From NCBI RefSeq assembly GCF_007896895.1, contig NZ_VOGW01000160.1, forward strand, positions 8,386 through 72,385: a DNA stretch of 64,000 nucleotides, in the 5' to 3' direction. The translations under genes and the position numbers were made by a program. The notes below the pieces were generated by a model. The model was given only the letters and a program-made list of their open reading frames with translations. It made no database searches and was not told the origin of the DNA. Shown in pieces: positions 2,874-9,370 of the stretch; the first letter of the stretch is position 1; the number at the start of each line of letters is the position of its first letter. Source of the DNA: Streptomyces misionensis (GTDB lineage Bacteria > Actinomycetota > Actinomycetes > Streptomycetales > Streptomycetaceae).

Positions 2874-3776
2874 TTACGCCGCCACGGGGGTCCCCGCCGG
2901 CGTGTAGTGCGAGGCGTCGCCCTCGATGGAGTAGCTCTCCTTGCCCTCGATGCCGACCGGGACGTCACCGGCGACGGTCACCCGGTGCAGCCGGCGCGGC
3001 AGCCCGTCGTAGTTGTCGATGGCGTAGTGCTGGGTGATCCGGTTGTCGAACAGCACCAGCTCCCGCTCCGCCCAGCGGTGGCGCAGGATGTTCTCCGGGC
3101 GGGTGACGTAGGACTGGAGCAGGTCGAGCACCTTGCGCGACTCGCCCGCCGACAGGCCCACGATCCGCTGCGCGAACCCGCCGATGAACAGCCCCCGCTC
3201 CCCGGTCAGCGGGTGCACGCGGACCACCGGGTGGGCGGTGCGGTACCTGATCGAGACGAACCGGGCGCGGCGTTCGGCCAGTTCCTCGTCGATCTCCTCG
3301 TCCGGTACGGCGTAGTCGTAGTCGTTGGTGTGCTCGGCCCACAGGGTGTCCGCGAAGCGGCGCAGCGGCTCGGGCAGGTCCCGGTAGGCGGCCGCCGCGT
3401 TCGCGATCAGGGTCTCGCCGCCGTACGGCGGGACGGTGAGCGAGCGCAGGGTGCTGGCCTGCGGCGGGTTGAGGACGAAGGTCACGTCCGTGTGCCAGTG
3501 GTTGGCGATGCCCCGCTCGCTGTCCACCGGGAGCACGTTCGGGGCGCCCTCGACGGCCTCGACGGTCGGATGGGCGGTGGTCAGCTCGCCGAAGTGCCGG
3601 GCGAAGGCCTGCTGGCCCGCGTCGTCCAGGCCGTCGGCGGCGAAGACCAGCGCCTTGTGGACGTTCAGGGCCTCGCGAATGCCGGTCACCTCCGCCTCGG
3701 TGAGCGGCCGGGTGAGGTCGAGGCCGGACACGCGGGCGCCGATGCGCGCGGTGACCTTGGTGATCTCCAGGGACAT
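2874..3776 (-). CDS. TauD/TfdA-family 2-oxoglutarate-dependent dioxygenase
   Basis: A 300-residue Fe(II)/2-oxoglutarate oxygenase of the taurine/alkylsulfate type. It hydroxylates the carbon next to a sulfonate or sulfate group so that sulfite or sulfate is released. The facial triad is H95 and D97 (NHWHTDVTF) and H250 (TQHYAIDNYD), with R261 and R265 (RRLHR) to bind 2-oxoglutarate. It lies 40 bp after the flavin monooxygenase gene and is the last gene of the sulfonate operon. An AAAGGAA site precedes the ATG. The substrate (taurine, alkylsulfate or another organosulfur compound) is open. Confidence 0.9.
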   Translation of the reverse strand: MSLEITKVTARIGARVSGLDLTRPLTEAEVTGIREALNVHKALVFAADGLDDAGQQAFARHFGELTTAHPTVEAVEGAPNVLPVDSERGIANHWHTDVTFVLNPPQASTLRSLTVPPYGGETLIANAAAAYRDLPEPLRRFADTLWAEHTNDYDYAVPDEEIDEELAERRARFVSIRYRTAHPVVRVHPLTGERGLFIGGFAQRIVGLSAGESRKVLDLLQSYVTRPENILRHRWAERELVLFDNRITQHYAIDNYDGLPRRLHRVTVAGDVPVGIEGKESYSIEGDASHYTPAGTPVAA

Positions 3777-3816: not shown

Positions 3817-5157
3817 TCAGCCGTGGGAAGGGGTCGGGTACCGGTTGGCGGGGCGGGGAAGCCCGTAGCGCTCGCGCAGGGTCCGGCGGGGCCCGTACTC
3901 CGTGCGGAACAGGCCTCGGGCGCGCAGGACCGGGACGACGTGGTCCACGAAGGCGTCCAGGCCCGAGGGCAGCACGGGCGGCATGACGTTGAAGCCGTCG
4001 GCCGCCCCTTGCGTGAACCAGGTCTCGATCCGGTCCGCGATCTGCTCGGGCGTCCCGGCGAAGGTCTGGTGCCCGCGCCCGCCGCCGAGCCGGCCGATCA
4101 GCTGCCGCACGGTGAGCTGCTCGCGCCGGGCCAGCGACACCACGAGGGTGTAGCGGCTCCTGGCGCCCTCGACGGCGGACTCGGGCGGCAGGTCCTCGGG
4201 CAGCCGCCGGTCCAGCTCCAGCGAGTCGGGCGCCAGCTGGAGCAGCCGTTCCAGGCGCTTGAGCCCGTGCTCGGGCACGATGTGCTCCGCCAGGACCCGC
4301 TCGGCCGCCCGCGCCTCGGCCTCCGTCGACCCGATGACCGGCACGATCCCGGGCAGCACCTTGAGATGCTCGGGGTTCCGCCCGGCCCGCTCCGTGCGGT
4401 ACTTGAGGTCCGCGTAGAAGACCTGCGCGTCGGCGAGGGTCTGCTGCGCGGTGAATACCGCCTCCGCGTACCGCGCCGCGAACGCCTTGCCGTCCGCCGA
4501 GGAACCCGCCTGCACCAGCAGCGGACGGGCCTGCGGGGAGCGCGGCACGTCAAGGGCGCCCGCGACCCGGAAGTACGGTCCCTCGTGCCGGGCGGGGTGG
4601 ACCTTGCGGTCGTCGCCCCAGACGCCGGCCGCCTTGTCGGCGACGATCGCGTCGTCCTCCCAGCTGTCCCACAGCTTCAGCGCCACGTCCAGGAAGTCGG
4701 CGGCGCGCGCGTACCGCTCGGCGTGCGGGGGCTCCCGCTCCAGACCGAAGTTGCGCGCCGCCTCCGCACCGGCGGTGGTGACGATGTTCCAGCCCGCCCG
4801 GCCGTCGCTGACGATGTCCAGCGAGGCGAGCCTGCGGGCCAGGTCGTAGGGGGAGTTGTAGGAGGTGGAGGCGGTGGCGATCAGACCGATGTGCTCGGTG
4901 GCCGTCGCCAGCGCGGTCAGCAGGGTCAGCGGGTCCAGGGCGCCCGCCGGACGCTGCCCGATGCCGCCCCACAGCTGCGGGCTGTCGGCCAGGAACAGGC
5001 TGTCGAAGGCGCCCCGCTCGGCGATCCGCGCGAGCCGTACGTAGTGCCCCGGATCGACGTGCACGTACGGGTCGCTCTCCGGCAGCCGCCACGAGGCCTC
5101 GTGGTGGCCGGTGTTCATCAGGAACGCGTTCAGGTGCAGTCGCCGTCCCTCGCTCAC
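3817..5157 (-). CDS. LLM-class FMNH2-dependent monooxygenase (NtaA/DmoA/SsuD-like)
   Basis: A 446-residue bacterial-luciferase-like oxygenase. It begins RRLHLNAFLMNTGHHEASWR and contains SLFLADSPQLWGG, TATEHIGLIATASTSYNSPYDLARRLASLD and SDGRAGWNIVTT, the hallmarks of the NtaA/SnaA/DmoA group that uses reduced FMN supplied by a separate reductase. Next to a sulfonate transporter and a TauD-like enzyme, a role in splitting C-S bonds to release sulfite is likely. The GTG start at 5155-5157 overlaps the stop of the ATPase gene (GTGA), so translation is coupled. No flavin reductase gene is seen in the cluster. Confidence 0.88.
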   Translation of the reverse strand: MSEGRRLHLNAFLMNTGHHEASWRLPESDPYVHVDPGHYVRLARIAERGAFDSLFLADSPQLWGGIGQRPAGALDPLTLLTALATATEHIGLIATASTSYNSPYDLARRLASLDIVSDGRAGWNIVTTAGAEAARNFGLEREPPHAERYARAADFLDVALKLWDSWEDDAIVADKAAGVWGDDRKVHPARHEGPYFRVAGALDVPRSPQARPLLVQAGSSADGKAFAARYAEAVFTAQQTLADAQVFYADLKYRTERAGRNPEHLKVLPGIVPVIGSTEAEARAAERVLAEHIVPEHGLKRLERLLQLAPDSLELDRRLPEDLPPESAVEGARSRYTLVVSLARREQLTVRQLIGRLGGGRGHQTFAGTPEQIADRIETWFTQGAADGFNVMPPVLPSGLDAFVDHVVPVLRARGLFRTEYGPRRTLRERYGLPRPANRYPTPSHG

Positions 5158-5888
5158 CGGTCGTCCTCCGTGACGCCGAGGGCGGCCAGCAGCCGCTCCC
5201 GGTACTCGCCCAGCAGCGGCTCCCGGTAGGAGCGCGGGTGGGGACGGTCGATGGCCAGATCGAGTCCGATGCGGCCCCGCTCCAGCACGAGGACCCGGTC
5301 GGCGAGCACGATCGCCTCGTCCACGTCATGGGTGACGAGCAGCACGGAGGGTCGGTGGCGCTCCCACAGCTCGCGCAGCAGATGGTGCATCCGGATGCGG
5401 GTCAGCGCGTCCAGCGCGCCGAACGGCTCGTCCGCCAGCAGCAGTTCGGGCTCCCGGACCAGGGCGCGGGCCAGCGCGGCCCGCTGTGCCTCGCCACCGG
5501 ACAGCTCGCCCGGCCAGGCCCGCTCCCGGCCCGCCAGCCCGACCTCGGCGAGGGCGGCCCGGCCGCGCTCCACCGCGCCCTTGCCGTCCAGGCCCAGCAC
5601 GACGTTGTCCAGCACCCGGCGCCAGGGCAGCAGACGGGAGTCCTGGAACGCCACCGACACCCGCCGCGGCGCCGCGACGTGCCCGGTCCCGGCCACCCCG
5701 TGGTCGAGTCCGGCGATCGCCCGCAGCAGCGTGGACTTGCCCGAGCCGGAGCGCCCCAGCAGGGCCGTGAACTGCCCGGCGGGCAGCTCCAGATCGAGGC
5801 CGTCGAGGACCGTACGGCCCCCGAACGACCGCTTCAGGTCCCGCAGCCGGACGGCGGGCCGGGTCAGCTGCTCAGTGTGCGGCGCCAT
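5154..5888 (-). CDS. Sulfonate-type ABC transporter ATP-binding protein (SsuB-like)
   Basis: A 244-residue nucleotide-binding subunit. It has Walker A GRSGSGKST, the Q-loop FQDSRLLPW, signature LSGGEAQRAALARAL, Walker B LLLADEPFGALD and the H-loop LLVTHDVDEA. The FQDSRLLPWRRVLDNV segment is characteristic of SsuB/TauB/nitrate-type importers. The ATG at 5888 lies inside the permease 3' end (25-nt overlap) and the stop overlaps the monooxygenase start. It powers uptake by the permease encoded just upstream. Confidence 0.9.
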   Translation of the reverse strand: MAPHTEQLTRPAVRLRDLKRSFGGRTVLDGLDLELPAGQFTALLGRSGSGKSTLLRAIAGLDHGVAGTGHVAAPRRVSVAFQDSRLLPWRRVLDNVVLGLDGKGAVERGRAALAEVGLAGRERAWPGELSGGEAQRAALARALVREPELLLADEPFGALDALTRIRMHHLLRELWERHRPSVLLVTHDVDEAIVLADRVLVLERGRIGLDLAIDRPHPRSYREPLLGEYRERLLAALGVTEDDR

Positions 5889-6706
5889 GACAGCACCCTC
5901 CGTTCGACGAGACGGACCGCGCTGTCGGAGACCAGGCCGAGCACGCCGTAGATCAGCAGGCCGACGAGGATGATGTCGGTACGGCCGTAGTTCTGCGCCT
6001 GGAACATCAGATAGCCGAGGCCACTGGTGGCGTTGATCTGCTCCAGCACCACCAGGCCCAGCCAGGAGCCGGTCACCCCGAGCCGCAGCCCCACGAAGAA
6101 CCCGGGCAGCGCCCCCGGGATCACCACCCGGCGCACGAACGCCGGCTTCGACAGGCCCTGCACCTCGGCGAGTTCGACGTACCGGCTGTCGATGCCGGCC
6201 AGCGCGGCGTGCGTGTTCAGATAGACCGGGATGTAGACGACGATCGCGATGATGGCGACCTTGAACGTCTCCCCGATGCCCAGCCAGAGGATGAACAGCG
6301 GGATCAGCCCGAGGGTGGGGATCGCCCGGTTGAGCTGCACCGTGCCGTCGACCAGCGCCTCGCCGGTCCGGCTGAGCCCGGCGACCAGCGCGAGCAGCAC
6401 CCCGGCGGCCAGCCCGATCGCGAAGCCGTACCCGGCCCGCCGCAGCGAGGTCAGCACATCGGTGGCCAGCGTGCCGTCGGTCCACAGCCGGCCGAGGGTG
6501 CGCAGCACCGTCCAGGGCGCCGGTATCGCGGCCGGATCGAGCTGCCCGGCGGCCGAGGCGGCGGCCCAGGCGGCGAGCACCAGCAAGGGGCCGGCCAGCC
6601 GGGCGGCGGGCCACCGGCGGCCGGGGGCGAGCCGGCGCCGCCGGCGGACCGGGGGCAGGGCGCCCGCCTCGGTGGGCGCGGCGGTCGTCGTGGTCACGGC
6701 GGTCAC
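5864..6706 (-). CDS. Sulfonate-type ABC transporter permease (SsuC-like)
   Basis: An inner-membrane subunit of about 280 residues with an N-terminal helix (LAGPLLVLAAWAAASAAG) and five more helices. The EAA loop reads YVELAEVQGLSKPAFVRRVVIPGALPGFF, the contact site for the ATPase. The GTG at 6704-6706 overlaps the TGA of the binding-protein gene and has GAGGAG 8 nt upstream; the GTG at 6697 is an alternative start with GGAGG upstream. The extended open frame upstream of 6706 is out-of-frame binding-protein sequence, not permease. Confidence 0.88.
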   Translation of the reverse strand: MTAVTTTTAAPTEAGALPPVRRRRRLAPGRRWPAARLAGPLLVLAAWAAASAAGQLDPAAIPAPWTVLRTLGRLWTDGTLATDVLTSLRRAGYGFAIGLAAGVLLALVAGLSRTGEALVDGTVQLNRAIPTLGLIPLFILWLGIGETFKVAIIAIVVYIPVYLNTHAALAGIDSRYVELAEVQGLSKPAFVRRVVIPGALPGFFVGLRLGVTGSWLGLVVLEQINATSGLGYLMFQAQNYGRTDIILVGLLIYGVLGLVSDSAVRLVERRVLSWRRTLSS

Positions 6707-7747
6707 CTCCGGTACTCCTCGGGTACGGCCCGCGCGGCGATCGTCTCGAAGCGGTGGTCGAACAGCGCGGTCACGTCCGTGTGCCGCACGAAGCCGCCCT
6801 CCGCGAGCAGATCCGCGGTCTCCTGCTCCCACCGGACGGCCTCGTCCCAACTGGGCGGGAACAGCGGTTTGTTGGCGAGCGCGGTGATGGACCGGGCCTG
6901 GGCGGGGCTCAGGTTCTGCGTCTTGACGTAGAACTCCTCGTTCCACTCGGCCGGATGCTCGTACTGCCACACCTGGCCCCTGGCCCACCGCGGGATGTAG
7001 GCGGCGATGGCGGCGGCCTTGGCGGGGTCGTTCAGCACGGACTGCGGCGCCCACAGCAGGTTGAGCAGGTCGACCACGTCGGTGGTGACGGTGCGGGCGC
7101 CCTTCGCCGCGTACTGCTGGAGGTAGGCGGGCGCCTGGCTGTTGGCGAGCGGTGCCACGTCGACCTGGCCGGACTGCAGGGCGGTCAGGAACTGGTTGCT
7201 GGTCAGCGGCACCAGCGTGACCTCGCCGTACGCCAGGCCCGCCTGCTTCAGGGCCCGCAGCAGCACCACGCCCTGCGCCTGCCCCTGCGAGAAGGCGAGC
7301 CGCCTGCCCTTGAAGTCGGCGACGGTGCGGATGTCGCTGCCGGGCCGGGTCGCGAAGAGGTAGTTCGGCCTGCGGGTCAGCCCGATCGCCACGATCTTCG
7401 CGGCGAGGCCCTGGAACTGCGCCTGGATCGGCGGGATGCCCGCGTTGTTGGCGAGATCCAGGGACCTGGGCGCGGAAGGCGTTGATGACATCGGGGCCGG
7501 CGGCGAGGTTCACCCACTCGGACACGGTGAACGGCAGCGGCGGGAACTTCCCCAGCCGGAACTGGAGTTGCTCCACCCCCTGGTACGAGGTGATCTTCAG
7601 GCTGGTGCCGGGCGGCACCCGGTCCGCCGGCGGCCGGGTGGCGGCGCCCCCGGTATCGGCGGCGGCCACGCCCTTGGCGCAGCCCGCGACGCCCAGGGCG
7701 GCGGCGGACGCGCCCAGCGCGGAGGTGAGAAAGAGACGGCGGCGCAT
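6703..7747 (-). pseudogene. Sulfonate/organosulfur ABC transporter binding lipoprotein, frameshifted
   Basis: The N-terminal third (MRRRLFLTSALGASAA..GVAGC, a Tat-like RRRLFL signal followed by a lipobox Cys) is read in one frame up to DVINAFRA. The rest (SLDLANNAGIPPIQ ... VPEEYRR) continues in another frame. Removing one C from the CCC run at 7468-7470 restores A-F-R-A-R-S-L-D-L-A and gives a normal 347-residue SsuA/NMT1-like protein. Either the gene is broken, slippage restores some product, or the base is an assembly error. The start has GGGAG 8 nt upstream. All other genes of the operon are intact, which favours a recent mutation or an error. Confidence 0.8.
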
Positions 7748-7883
7748 GGAAGGTCTCCCGGAAAAGAGCCGGTCTACGGAAACCCGGTCAACGGAAACAT
7801 GGAGAGAACACAGAGAAACCCGGGGAAGCGCTGAGAAACCCTGCGAAATTCACGGAAACACGCGCTTCACGCGCGGCAACATG

Positions 7884-7934
7884 TCAGCAACAGAGGGCGC
7901 GACAGCCGGTCCGGTAGCTCGTGAGAGGGCTCAT
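7884..7934 (-). CDS. Cys-rich leader peptide of the sulfonate operon (16 aa)
   Basis: A short ORF translates to MSPLTSYRTGCRALCC and stops. The ATG lies exactly 7 nt after a GAACAT -10 hexamer, so it would be the first codon of a leaderless mRNA. Three of its last six codons are Cys, two adjacent to the stop, 136 nt upstream of the binding-protein gene. Leaderless Cys-rich mini-ORFs before sulfur operons are known in mycobacteria as cysteine-responsive attenuators. By analogy, ribosome stalling at the Cys codons when cysteine is scarce could raise expression of the transporter. Confidence 0.55.
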   Translation of the reverse strand: MSPLTSYRTGCRALCC

Positions 7935-7941
7935 GACCAGC

Positions 7942-7971
7942 ATGTTCCCGGTGCCGGGCGGCCGGTGTCAA
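7942..7971 (-). promoter_or_regulatory. Promoter of the sulfonate operon
   Basis: On the minus strand a perfect -35 TTGACA (7966-7971) is followed by an 18-nt spacer and GAACAT (7942-7947) as -10. The predicted start of transcription coincides with the ATG of the leader peptide at 7934. Confidence 0.6.
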
Positions 7972-7988
7972 CATTCCGAGTTTCTGAA

Positions 7989-9191
7989 TTAAATACGCTC
8001 AGGTGAGGCGCTCAACGGATCTCGGAACAACTCGTCGAGCACCACCGAACCCCCCGCCACGGCAAGTACGGAATCGGGGAAACTCGTCGGCAGCACGGAC
8101 GCGGAACGGGAATTGCCGACCGCCTCCCGGAGCGCGTCCAGGCACTGGGAGAAGTGGATGATCCCCACCTCGGTGACCACGACCGTCTCCGGATTGAGCA
8201 CATCGAGCAGCAGTCCGGCCGCCCGCCCCGTCGCCCGCGCCCGCTCCACCAGCAGCCGCCGGGCCACCGCGTCCCCGGCCGCCGCCGCGGCCACCACCCG
8301 CATCGGATGGGCGCCCGCCTCCACGACCCCGGCCTCCCGGGCCCTGCGGCACAACGTCCGCTCGCCCAGCTCCGCCTGGAGGCAGCCGGTACGCCCGCAG
8401 GGGCACGGCTCGCTGCCGCCCGGCACCGGCAGATGGGCGATGGCGCCGGCCGCGGACCGGGGCCCGTGGTGCACCTCGTCGCCGGTGGCGAACGCGGCGT
8501 CCACCACATTGCCCACGAACAGGTGCAGCACGCTCCCGCCGCCCCGGGCCCGCCCGAACAGCCGCTCCCCGTTCACCAGCGCCCGCGCGTGCCCGTCGAC
8601 GTGCACGGGCAGTCCGGTGCGGGCGGCGAGCAGCTCCCGCACCGGCACCTCCCGCCAGCCCAGCAGCTCGTGCTCGACCACGGTGCCGGCCGCCCGGTCC
8701 ACCCAGCCGCCGACGGCCACCCCGATCCCCAGGGGCCGCCGGTCAGGCATCCGCGCGAACAGCGCCGCGAGCCCGTCCGCGGCCCGCGCCACCACCCCTT
8801 CCGGATCGGTCCGCCGGTGCTTCAGCTCCCGCCGGGCCAGCACCCGGCCGCGCAGGTCCAGCAGCGCCACCGTGGTGTACGGCACCGCCACGTGCACCCC
8901 GCCCACCACGAACCGCGCGTCGTCCAGCTCCACCGGCACATGCGGCCGGCCCACCCCGCGCGAGCGGCGCGGGGCGGCCGACTCCCGGATCAGTCCGAGG
9001 GCGGCGAGCCGGGCGCAGTGCTCGGTCACCGACGCGGGCGACAGCCCGGTCAGCCGGGCCACGGTGCTGCGCGCCACCGGCCCGTGCTCCAGCACGGACC
9101 GCAGCACGACGCTGGCACTGGTGCGCCGCCGGTCAGGGTCGGCGGCGCGCGGAACGGGGGAGGCAAGGGTGGAGGCCGCACTGCGGGGCAT
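7989..9191 (-). CDS. ROK-family transcriptional regulator
   Basis: A 400-residue repressor. An N-terminal winged helix (residues about 25-75, VLEHGPVARSTVARLTGLSPASVTEHCARLAALGLI) is joined to a ROK sugar-kinase-like domain with the zinc motif CPCGRTGCLQAE and a glycine-rich C-terminal VAGGSVVLDELF. ROK regulators usually sense sugars or sugar phosphates. Here the gene points into the sulfonate operon and is itself preceded by a sulfur-type leader peptide, so it may control organosulfur use (for example sulfoquinovose); this is inference. It ends only 18 bp before the -35 of the operon promoter. Confidence 0.88.
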   Translation of the reverse strand: MPRSAASTLASPVPRAADPDRRRTSASVVLRSVLEHGPVARSTVARLTGLSPASVTEHCARLAALGLIRESAAPRRSRGVGRPHVPVELDDARFVVGGVHVAVPYTTVALLDLRGRVLARRELKHRRTDPEGVVARAADGLAALFARMPDRRPLGIGVAVGGWVDRAAGTVVEHELLGWREVPVRELLAARTGLPVHVDGHARALVNGERLFGRARGGGSVLHLFVGNVVDAAFATGDEVHHGPRSAAGAIAHLPVPGGSEPCPCGRTGCLQAELGERTLCRRAREAGVVEAGAHPMRVVAAAAAGDAVARRLLVERARATGRAAGLLLDVLNPETVVVTEVGIIHFSQCLDALREAVGNSRSASVLPTSFPDSVLAVAGGSVVLDELFRDPLSASPERI

Positions 9192-9266: not shown

Positions 9267-9353
9267 CTATCCCGGACGGCGACAGGTGGCCGTACCCTGG
9301 CGCCGCAGGTCGACATAGCGACGCGAGGTGAAGTAGCGGGCCTGGGCAACCAT
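9267..9353 (-). CDS. Leader peptide of the SRR-x-VDL-x-R type (28 aa)
   Basis: A 28-codon ORF on the minus strand ends 75 bp before the ROK start. It contains SRRYVDLRRQGTATC, matching the pattern SRRHVDL-x-R ... C of small leader peptides that precede sulfur-uptake operons across Streptomyces (pattern from memory). A TAGCTT hexamer lies 7 nt upstream of the ATG, so the mRNA would be leaderless. No Shine-Dalgarno is present. It suggests that the ROK gene is also under cysteine or sulfate control. Confidence 0.6.
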   Translation of the reverse strand: MVAQARYFTSRRYVDLRRQGTATCRRPG

Positions 9354-9370
9354 GTGCCCGAAGCTAGCAA

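Follow-up and report, generated by a model that had tools for sequence, protein, structure and literature searches.

The 64,000-nt stretch of the Streptomyces misionensis genome analysed here (the window) carries, ahead of a sulfonate operon, a short open reading frame (ORF) that in all likelihood (probability about 0.8) acts as a leaderless leader peptide of the mycobacterial kind, which would sense charged tRNA-Cys and gate the operon. The leader probably switches the operon on at cysteine shortage. The elements described in the initial annotation, a 16-codon ORF with terminal Cys codons placed directly behind a promoter, were all confirmed on the minus strand, including the peptide itself:

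7884..7934, minus strand: leader-peptide ORF, putatively leaderless, 16 codons, MSPLTSYRTGCRALCC, stop codon TGA (read directly)
7966..7971, minus strand: -35 element TTGACA, found in 72 of the 72 orthologous leader loci described below (TTGAC was part of the rule by which these loci were found)
7942..7947, minus strand: -10-like element GAACAT, ending 7 nt before the ATG at 7934

As read on the minus strand, TTGACA and GAACAT are separated by 18 nt. The initial annotation had called this a consensus promoter, which holds for the -35 element, a perfect TTGACA, and fails for GAACAT, in which just the A and the T of TAnnnT are matched; among the leader loci the -10 hexamer is GAACAT in 48/72, GAGCAT in 11/72 and some other variant in 13/72. 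A generic sigma-70 scan of positions 7000-9000 returned no promoters. Judged from the promoter spacing, transcription would start on the A of the ATG at 7934, and the distance of 7 nt from the end of the hexamer to the ATG is that of leaderless polycysteine attenuators, a resemblance by spacing only. The pattern TTGAC-N28-34-ATG-N12-42-TGYTGYTGA has a single match in the 8,312,220-base genome, located at the leader, and its reversed control has none. With a stricter pattern, one match apiece was obtained in 62 of 293 Streptomycetales genomes (control: 0), namely in 62 of the 273 genomes of the window's own genus and in 0 of the 20 from other genera. The description of the ORF as unannotated fits the absence of any NCBIfam or Pfam match to it; since it has no family match, we conclude that profile libraries miss leaders so short. 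An overlapping ORF that starts from an ATG at 7974 (35 aa, ending ..LLLTCCRA) was rejected because its start and its Cys content are poorly kept across the 72 loci: the start is an ATG in just 60 of them, and within these 60 the number of Cys is 0 in 25, 1 in 24, 2 in 7 and 3 in 4.

The location before a sulfonate operon was borne out by the genes downstream, which specify an SsuA/B/C-like transporter with its substrate-binding protein (SBP), an FMN monooxygenase and a TauD-like dioxygenase:

7755..7759, minus strand: Shine-Dalgarno sequence GGGAG of the SBP gene (read directly)
6703..7747, minus strand: SsuA-like sulfonate SBP gene (TIGR01728 SsuA_fam, 89.1 bits for the 3' part, below the cut-off of 163.5)
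5864..6730 (5' end approximate), minus strand: SsuC-like sulfonate ABC permease, below curated cut-offs
5154..5879 (5' end approximate), minus strand: SsuB-like ATP-binding protein, below curated cut-offs
3817..5157, minus strand: NtaA/DmoA-family FMN-dependent monooxygenase (TIGR03860, 538.5 bits, over the cut-off)
2874..3776, minus strand: TauD-like taurine dioxygenase (NF007104, 208.8 bits, below the cut-off)

With the exception of the monooxygenase, all sulfonate and taurine family matches are below the curated cut-offs. The SBP gene of the window is frameshifted near 7466-7469, where it has one extra C compared with a named relative, and in S. griseofuscus and S. murinus the gene has an uninterrupted reading frame; this was counted against the best explanation, and the frameshift may be either an assembly error (the assembly is a 210-contig draft) or a real loss.

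Searching with the SBP at the protein level (E up to 1e-60) identified relatives in 94 of the 295 genomes covered within the genus. Of these, 75, with the window's own among them, are close (76-100% identity) and 19 are distant (59-63%). A TTGACA, an ATG 36-37 nt further on (37 nt in 69 loci and 36 nt in 3) and a short ORF ending in CRTLCC, CRALCC or near it are present in 72 of the 75 close orthologs. Non-conservation of the Cys codons in orthologous upstream regions had been named as the observation that would speak against an attenuator, and the opposite was found. To be counted among the 72 leader loci (L002-L076 minus L013, L015 and L019), a locus needed TTGAC, an ATG at a distance of 36-37 nt, and an ORF that has Cys among its three C-terminal residues; L074, which is without GAATNTTGAC before its -35 element, was admitted via a relaxed rule. 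The leader ORFs have lengths of 8 (13 loci), 11 (6), 12 (45), 13, 15 and 16 (one each) and 27 codons (5), with a variable N-terminus and a constant C-terminus, the two final residues being Cys-Cys in 69 and Cys-Arg in 3 of the 72. In S. griseofuscus (DSM 40191) and S. murinus (NRRL B-2286), the nearest named relatives, the leader is MRPFTSCRTECHAFCC; in our reading, the leaders of these two species and of the window appear to have a four-codon insertion compared with the usual 12-codon form, and the window leader seems to have Tyr in place of the first Cys. That the ORF product is a functional Cys-rich micropeptide with a metal or redox role, and not a cis-acting element, is very improbable: two or three Cys are found in each of the 72 members, as such a peptide might have, but peptides of 8-27 residues share only about their last six, and the shortest are reduced to MSCRTLCC and MTCRTLCC.

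Frame and Cys had been part of the selection of the 72 loci, and the frame test was therefore rerun with an ORF-free rule whose sole demands are GAATNTTGACA, an ATG that lies 35-38 nt further on, and a Cys-Cys-stop-C block. In 71/71 close loci and 77/77 named loci that fit this rule, ATG and Cys-Cys-stop block share one reading frame, over ORF lengths of 8-27 codons, and among the close and named loci none has the promoter and is without the ATG or the Cys block. Outside the rule are L013, L015, L019 and L074 among the close loci, and L153, L163 and L198 among the named ones. All of the named loci fetched (80, the best of 237 confirmed) have the leader; they are not independent of the genome set because their species overlap. 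Two observations were counted against the best explanation: the leader arrangement is absent from 19/19 distant SBP relatives, and three of the 75 close orthologs (L013, L015 and L019) have neither the arrangement nor a TTGACA promoter. The notion that the ORF stands by chance beside the promoter of the SBP operon, so that only promoter and operator matter, draws on the fact that no part of the locus is more conserved than operator and TTGACA. It is scarcely credible in view of an arrangement that is unique in the genome, an ORF end that is conserved well past the promoter, and the in-frame conservation of the Cys block, which is the very finding that counts against chance; moreover, L015 and L019 still hold a short Cys ORF without the promoter (MSCRTLCC or MSCRTLCR).

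At codon level, 66 of the 68 loci used for spacer analysis (see below) were aligned as short ORFs. Their terminal codons are TGT (65/66), CGC (66), ACC, ACT or GCC, a variable codon, TGT (66), TGC (62) and TGA (66). Over all 72 leader ORFs, TGT and TGC occur in a ratio of 140:73, compared with 1:24 in ten genes of the window. A consensus fold of 25 selected orthologs places a possible RNA stem over the same block:

7883..7904, minus strand: possible RNA stem P1 over the Cys codons and the stop codon, GUCGC.. pairing with UGCUGAC

The strict form of P1 (GTCGYA / TGY TGAC) is found in 62 of the 72 loci, and the window copy, which has GTCGCG, fails it. UGA followed by C is a possible slow-termination context. 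The base after the stop codon is a C in 72/72 leader loci, the next base being variable, and this C may be either part of P1 or such a termination context. The invariant third positions (TGT CGC) and the C that follows the stop might be due to an RNA stem and not to codon requirements. These features are what would be put forward for a conserved RNA stem or riboswitch-like structure with an incidental ORF, as is the formation of P1 through different reading registers: it runs through TGT-CGC-A in the short ORFs and through GTC-GCA in four of the five long ones, a persistence of pairing that hints at a role at the RNA level. Such a structure as the conserved element in place of the peptide is nevertheless improbable, given that the Cys block is in frame in all close and named loci that fit the ORF-free rule, over seven ORF lengths, that TGT codons are enriched, that silent positions of the Thr and Leu codons differ between loci, and that the Rfam search gave no match at the leader (its one stray match, mir-1180 with 24.8 of 49 bits, is inside the regulator gene described next).

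Upstream of the leader, the window encodes a ROK-family regulator, preceded by a second putative leader:

7989..9191, minus strand: ROK-family regulator gene (PF00480, 104.7 bits, over the cut-off)
7973..7989, minus strand: 17-bp imperfect palindrome ATTCAGA-AAC-TCGGAAT, 1 bp upstream of the -35 element; probable ROK operator
9267..9353, minus strand: second putatively leaderless leader ORF, before the ROK gene, MVAQARYFTSRRYVDLRRQGTATCRRPG (NF042934 cis_reg_atten, 20.2 bits, below the cut-off of 27)
9361..9366, minus strand: -10 element TAGCTT, 7 nt before the ATG of the ROK leader

The winged helix of the ROK protein was matched below cut-off only (MarR_2, 23.7 of 27). A ROK match lies upstream, within the fetched stretch, in 71 of the 72 leader loci (the exception is L074), and is missing from the 19 distant SBP relatives. 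Counted from TTGACA, bases -18 to -2 read ATTCAGA-AAC-TC(C/G)GAAT and are almost invariant across the leader loci: the strict palindrome with TTGACA occurs in 64/72, near-matches in 7, and only L074 is without it. The palindrome is absent from the four close orthologs without an upstream ROK match (L013, L015, L019 and L074) and from 19/19 distant relatives. We also considered it as the mere tail of the ROK gene and rejected this: in the window it lies past the ROK stop codon save one base, and it is gone where the ROK gene is gone, for which reasons it was taken as an operator. Its layout, an inverted repeat ATTCAGA-N3-TCGGAAT with a 3-bp gap upstream of the -35 element, is that of an SsuR-type site. 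In Corynebacterium glutamicum, according to the accessible part of PMC2580772, SsuR and CysR are ROK-type activators of sulfonate and sulfate genes, the site bound by SsuR consists of an inverted repeat whose halves are 3 bp apart, and in CysR-activated promoters the CysR sites directly precede the -35 element. From this precedent and from the co-occurrence of palindrome and gene, the palindrome is probably the operator of the adjacent ROK protein. The likeness to SsuR consists of the link with sulfonate genes and the site layout.

Of the 80 named loci (the best of 237), 74 contain an ORF resembling the ROK leader, the other six having incomplete upstream flanks, and its usual form has one Cys (66/74). 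YANNNT occurs 6-8 nt before a start of that frame in 74 of the 80 loci, compared with 1.9% of ATG/GTG there, a background calculated for individual start codons, whereas each leader could score through any of several in-frame starts. The ROK leader of the window, at 20.2 bits, is thus supported by its conservation and not by its score. It seems, then, that the regulator gene and the operon each have a leaderless leader of their own. At L013, L015 and L019, a ROK-type leader sits before the SBP gene instead.

Kinship with known leader families was found through the longest orthologs. The five leaders of 27 codons end in PLTKCRVVDLMRVARTxCC, and these long forms (PLTKCRVVDLMRVARTLCC) match NF042933 (Ms5788A) at E 2e-4, the best one tried reaching 20.9 bits against a cut-off of 45. 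The genome has an Ms5788A-type leader of its own, DLTKRRAVDLCRVAAMLCR / MKRQADLTKRRAVDLCRVAAMLCRPF, located before a 3-mercaptopyruvate-sulfurtransferase-like gene, which scores 46.5 bits as a 26-aa peptide (cut-off 45) and 40.7 bits in a six-frame search of the genome, and with which the long-form sulfonate leaders share LTK-R-VDL-RVA-LC. The short leader forms may be derived from the long ones. The sulfonate leader of the window itself has no NF042933 match and is not among the 14 NF042934 matches of the genome, so that it was filed in neither NCBIfam family. The ROK leader has an R-R-x-V-D-L core like that of NF042934 (cis_reg_atten, 'putative leader peptide'), yet remains under the cut-off of that family.

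The 14 NF042934 matches of this genome were obtained at E up to 1, with eight over the cut-off. At the same E-value, six of 14 unrelated control genomes also have matches, none of them over the cut-off, for which reason matches under the cut-off need other support. The eight over-cut-off leaders precede genes for a luciferase-like monooxygenase, a cysteine dioxygenase, a sulfatase, the dimethylsulfone monooxygenase SfnG, a nitrite/sulfite reductase, a GST C-terminal-domain protein, a sulfurtransferase-like protein and a flavin reductase, and genes for an ABC permease and a sodium:dicarboxylate symporter follow matches below the cut-off. The putative leaders before sulfur and other genes of this genome (L112-L123) are likely to make up a sulfur regulon.

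The proposed mechanism combines these elements. Transcription from the TTGACA promoter, under probable control by the adjacent SsuR-like ROK protein, would begin at the leader ATG, and ribosomes would load onto the 5'-terminal AUG. When cysteine is plentiful, they would pass the terminal Cys codons and be released at UGA-C, after which a long, untranslated, pyrimidine-rich spacer would be exposed to premature termination, for which Rho is the likeliest agent; this is the weakest step of the model. When cysteine is short, ribosomes would be held up at the terminal Cys codons of the ORF and P1 would stay open, and the stall would alter the fate of the leader RNA in such a way that the transporter and monooxygenase genes are expressed. 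The spacer in question is the following:

7764..7853, minus strand: pyrimidine-rich spacer before the SBP gene, candidate Rho-loading region, pyrimidine fraction 0.66

SBP starts were located by rule in 68 of the 72 loci, and L036, L037, L048 and L050 were left out of the spacer and folding counts. These four have long-form leaders with no SBP start within 330 nt, and their SBP gene seems to be further off. The mean pyrimidine fraction of the spacer is 0.70 in the 68 orthologs, compared with 0.50 for the window background (sliding windows over the 64 kb, which is mostly coding) and 0.587 for the distant orthologs without a leader (18 of the 19, those with a usable SBP start). After 12 other leader matches of the genome it is 0.56-0.71, versus 0.35-0.62 upstream of them. 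A terminator scan of positions 7000-9000 returned no terminator-like sites, so the intrinsic terminator that a classical trpL-type attenuator has between leader ORF and first gene was not found. A hairpin after the stop codon was tried as a terminator and discarded: it looks regular in some loci, but its mean z is -0.44 against mononucleotide shuffles (n=72), with z below -1 in 19% of the 72 loci. The consensus fold of the 25 selected loci further contains a spacer helix, GCG.GAATTCC/GGAATTCCGC, on which no claim is built. A ribosome at the last Cys codon would cover just a few bases past the stop, which counts against the step in which Rho is blocked, and termination by Rho as the output step is put forward as a tentative proposal, at odds well under even.

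For the same leader peptide, a different output would be translational attenuation as in M. smegmatis, in which the stalled ribosome prevents a structure that hides the Shine-Dalgarno sequence of the first gene; this rivals the Rho step only. Translational attenuation by a leaderless polycysteine sORF is said to have been described by Canestrari in 2020 for mycobacteria, the closest tested relatives. The SBP Shine-Dalgarno sequence is mostly paired in predictions (0.15 unpaired), and GGGAGTCCTCCC is self-pairing in the consensus fold of 25 loci, which are both in favour of this output, as is the mechanism reported for the mycobacterial relatives, cited as translation attenuation in the accessible text of PMC13236596. 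When a ribosome footprint was masked over the penultimate Cys codon, in contrast, the unpaired fraction of the Shine-Dalgarno sequence rose by more than 0.05 in 1 of 68 loci and fell in 3 of 68. The mean unpaired fraction over the 68 loci, as folded in silico, is 0.149 without a ribosome, 0.147 or 0.143 with one, 0.157 with the ribosome at the stop codon and 0.149-0.154 with misplaced ribosomes. The predicted folds thus do not support simple release of the Shine-Dalgarno sequence, and the spacer between leader and SBP gene, 86-287 nt in the 68 loci, is too long for re-initiation coupling. As an output for this leader, translational attenuation is considered unlikely, if a serious contender.

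Taken together, the data can be read, as a conjecture falling not far short of even odds, as a Streptomyces cysteine regulon that acts via many leaderless leaders. Its sulfonate unit would be gated twice, the gene for the SsuR-like activator and the operon each having a leaderless Cys leader at which tRNA-Cys charging is read, with Rho termination and not Shine-Dalgarno release as output. The sulfonate leaders would be worn-down forms of the Ms5788A type, shortened to as few as eight codons while the sensing end is kept. A conserved set of this kind in Streptomyces would extend leaderless cysteine attenuation from the mycobacteria to the main antibiotic producers and provide a readily testable minimal sensor of eight codons, for which natural variants are at hand in the long leaders, the Cys-Arg ends and the loci without regulator and promoter.

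Leaders of a like kind in actinobacteria are already familiar to annotators, as the NCBI families indicate. No report of the present leader in Streptomyces is among the literature matches listed, in which subscription papers are mostly not included, and the experimental work on cysteine attenuation by leaderless sORFs among these matches, as far as their accessible text goes, concerns mycobacteria. The reannotation of S. lividans TK24 describes, in the available portion of PMC8079986, eight leader peptides, several of them leaderless, which are assigned to Leu, Trp, Ala, Ile, Met and Thr and none to cysteine; its Met leader (metL) ends in ARCMCRRMCAF, with three Cys near the end, and may belong to the cysteine leaders. 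In the accessible text of a 2024 review of Streptomyces metabolism that includes sulfur (PMC11356490), no word starting with 'attenuat' occurs. Candidate Cys leaders before the cys operons of Mycobacterium and P. acnes and before cbs of B. longum were proposed by Seliverstov in 2005 (PMC1262725). According to the part of that paper available, they likewise have Cys codons near the stop and no conserved terminator, and Rho was suggested; that same part names no Streptomyces cysteine case and does not use the word 'leaderless'.

The closest known systems are the polycysteine leaderless sORF attenuators of mycobacteria, whose Cys sORFs are also treated in accessible sections of PMC4633059 and PMC9094748. 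Compared with these, the Streptomyces leader is found in another genus and before another operon, is in most cases far shorter (67 of 72 loci have 8-16 codons) and is coupled to a TTGACA promoter next to a palindrome, and its predicted folding gives no sign of Shine-Dalgarno release. Common to both are a 5'-terminal start codon (here by spacing), a run of Cys codons at the 3' end, and the position as first ORF before sulfur genes.
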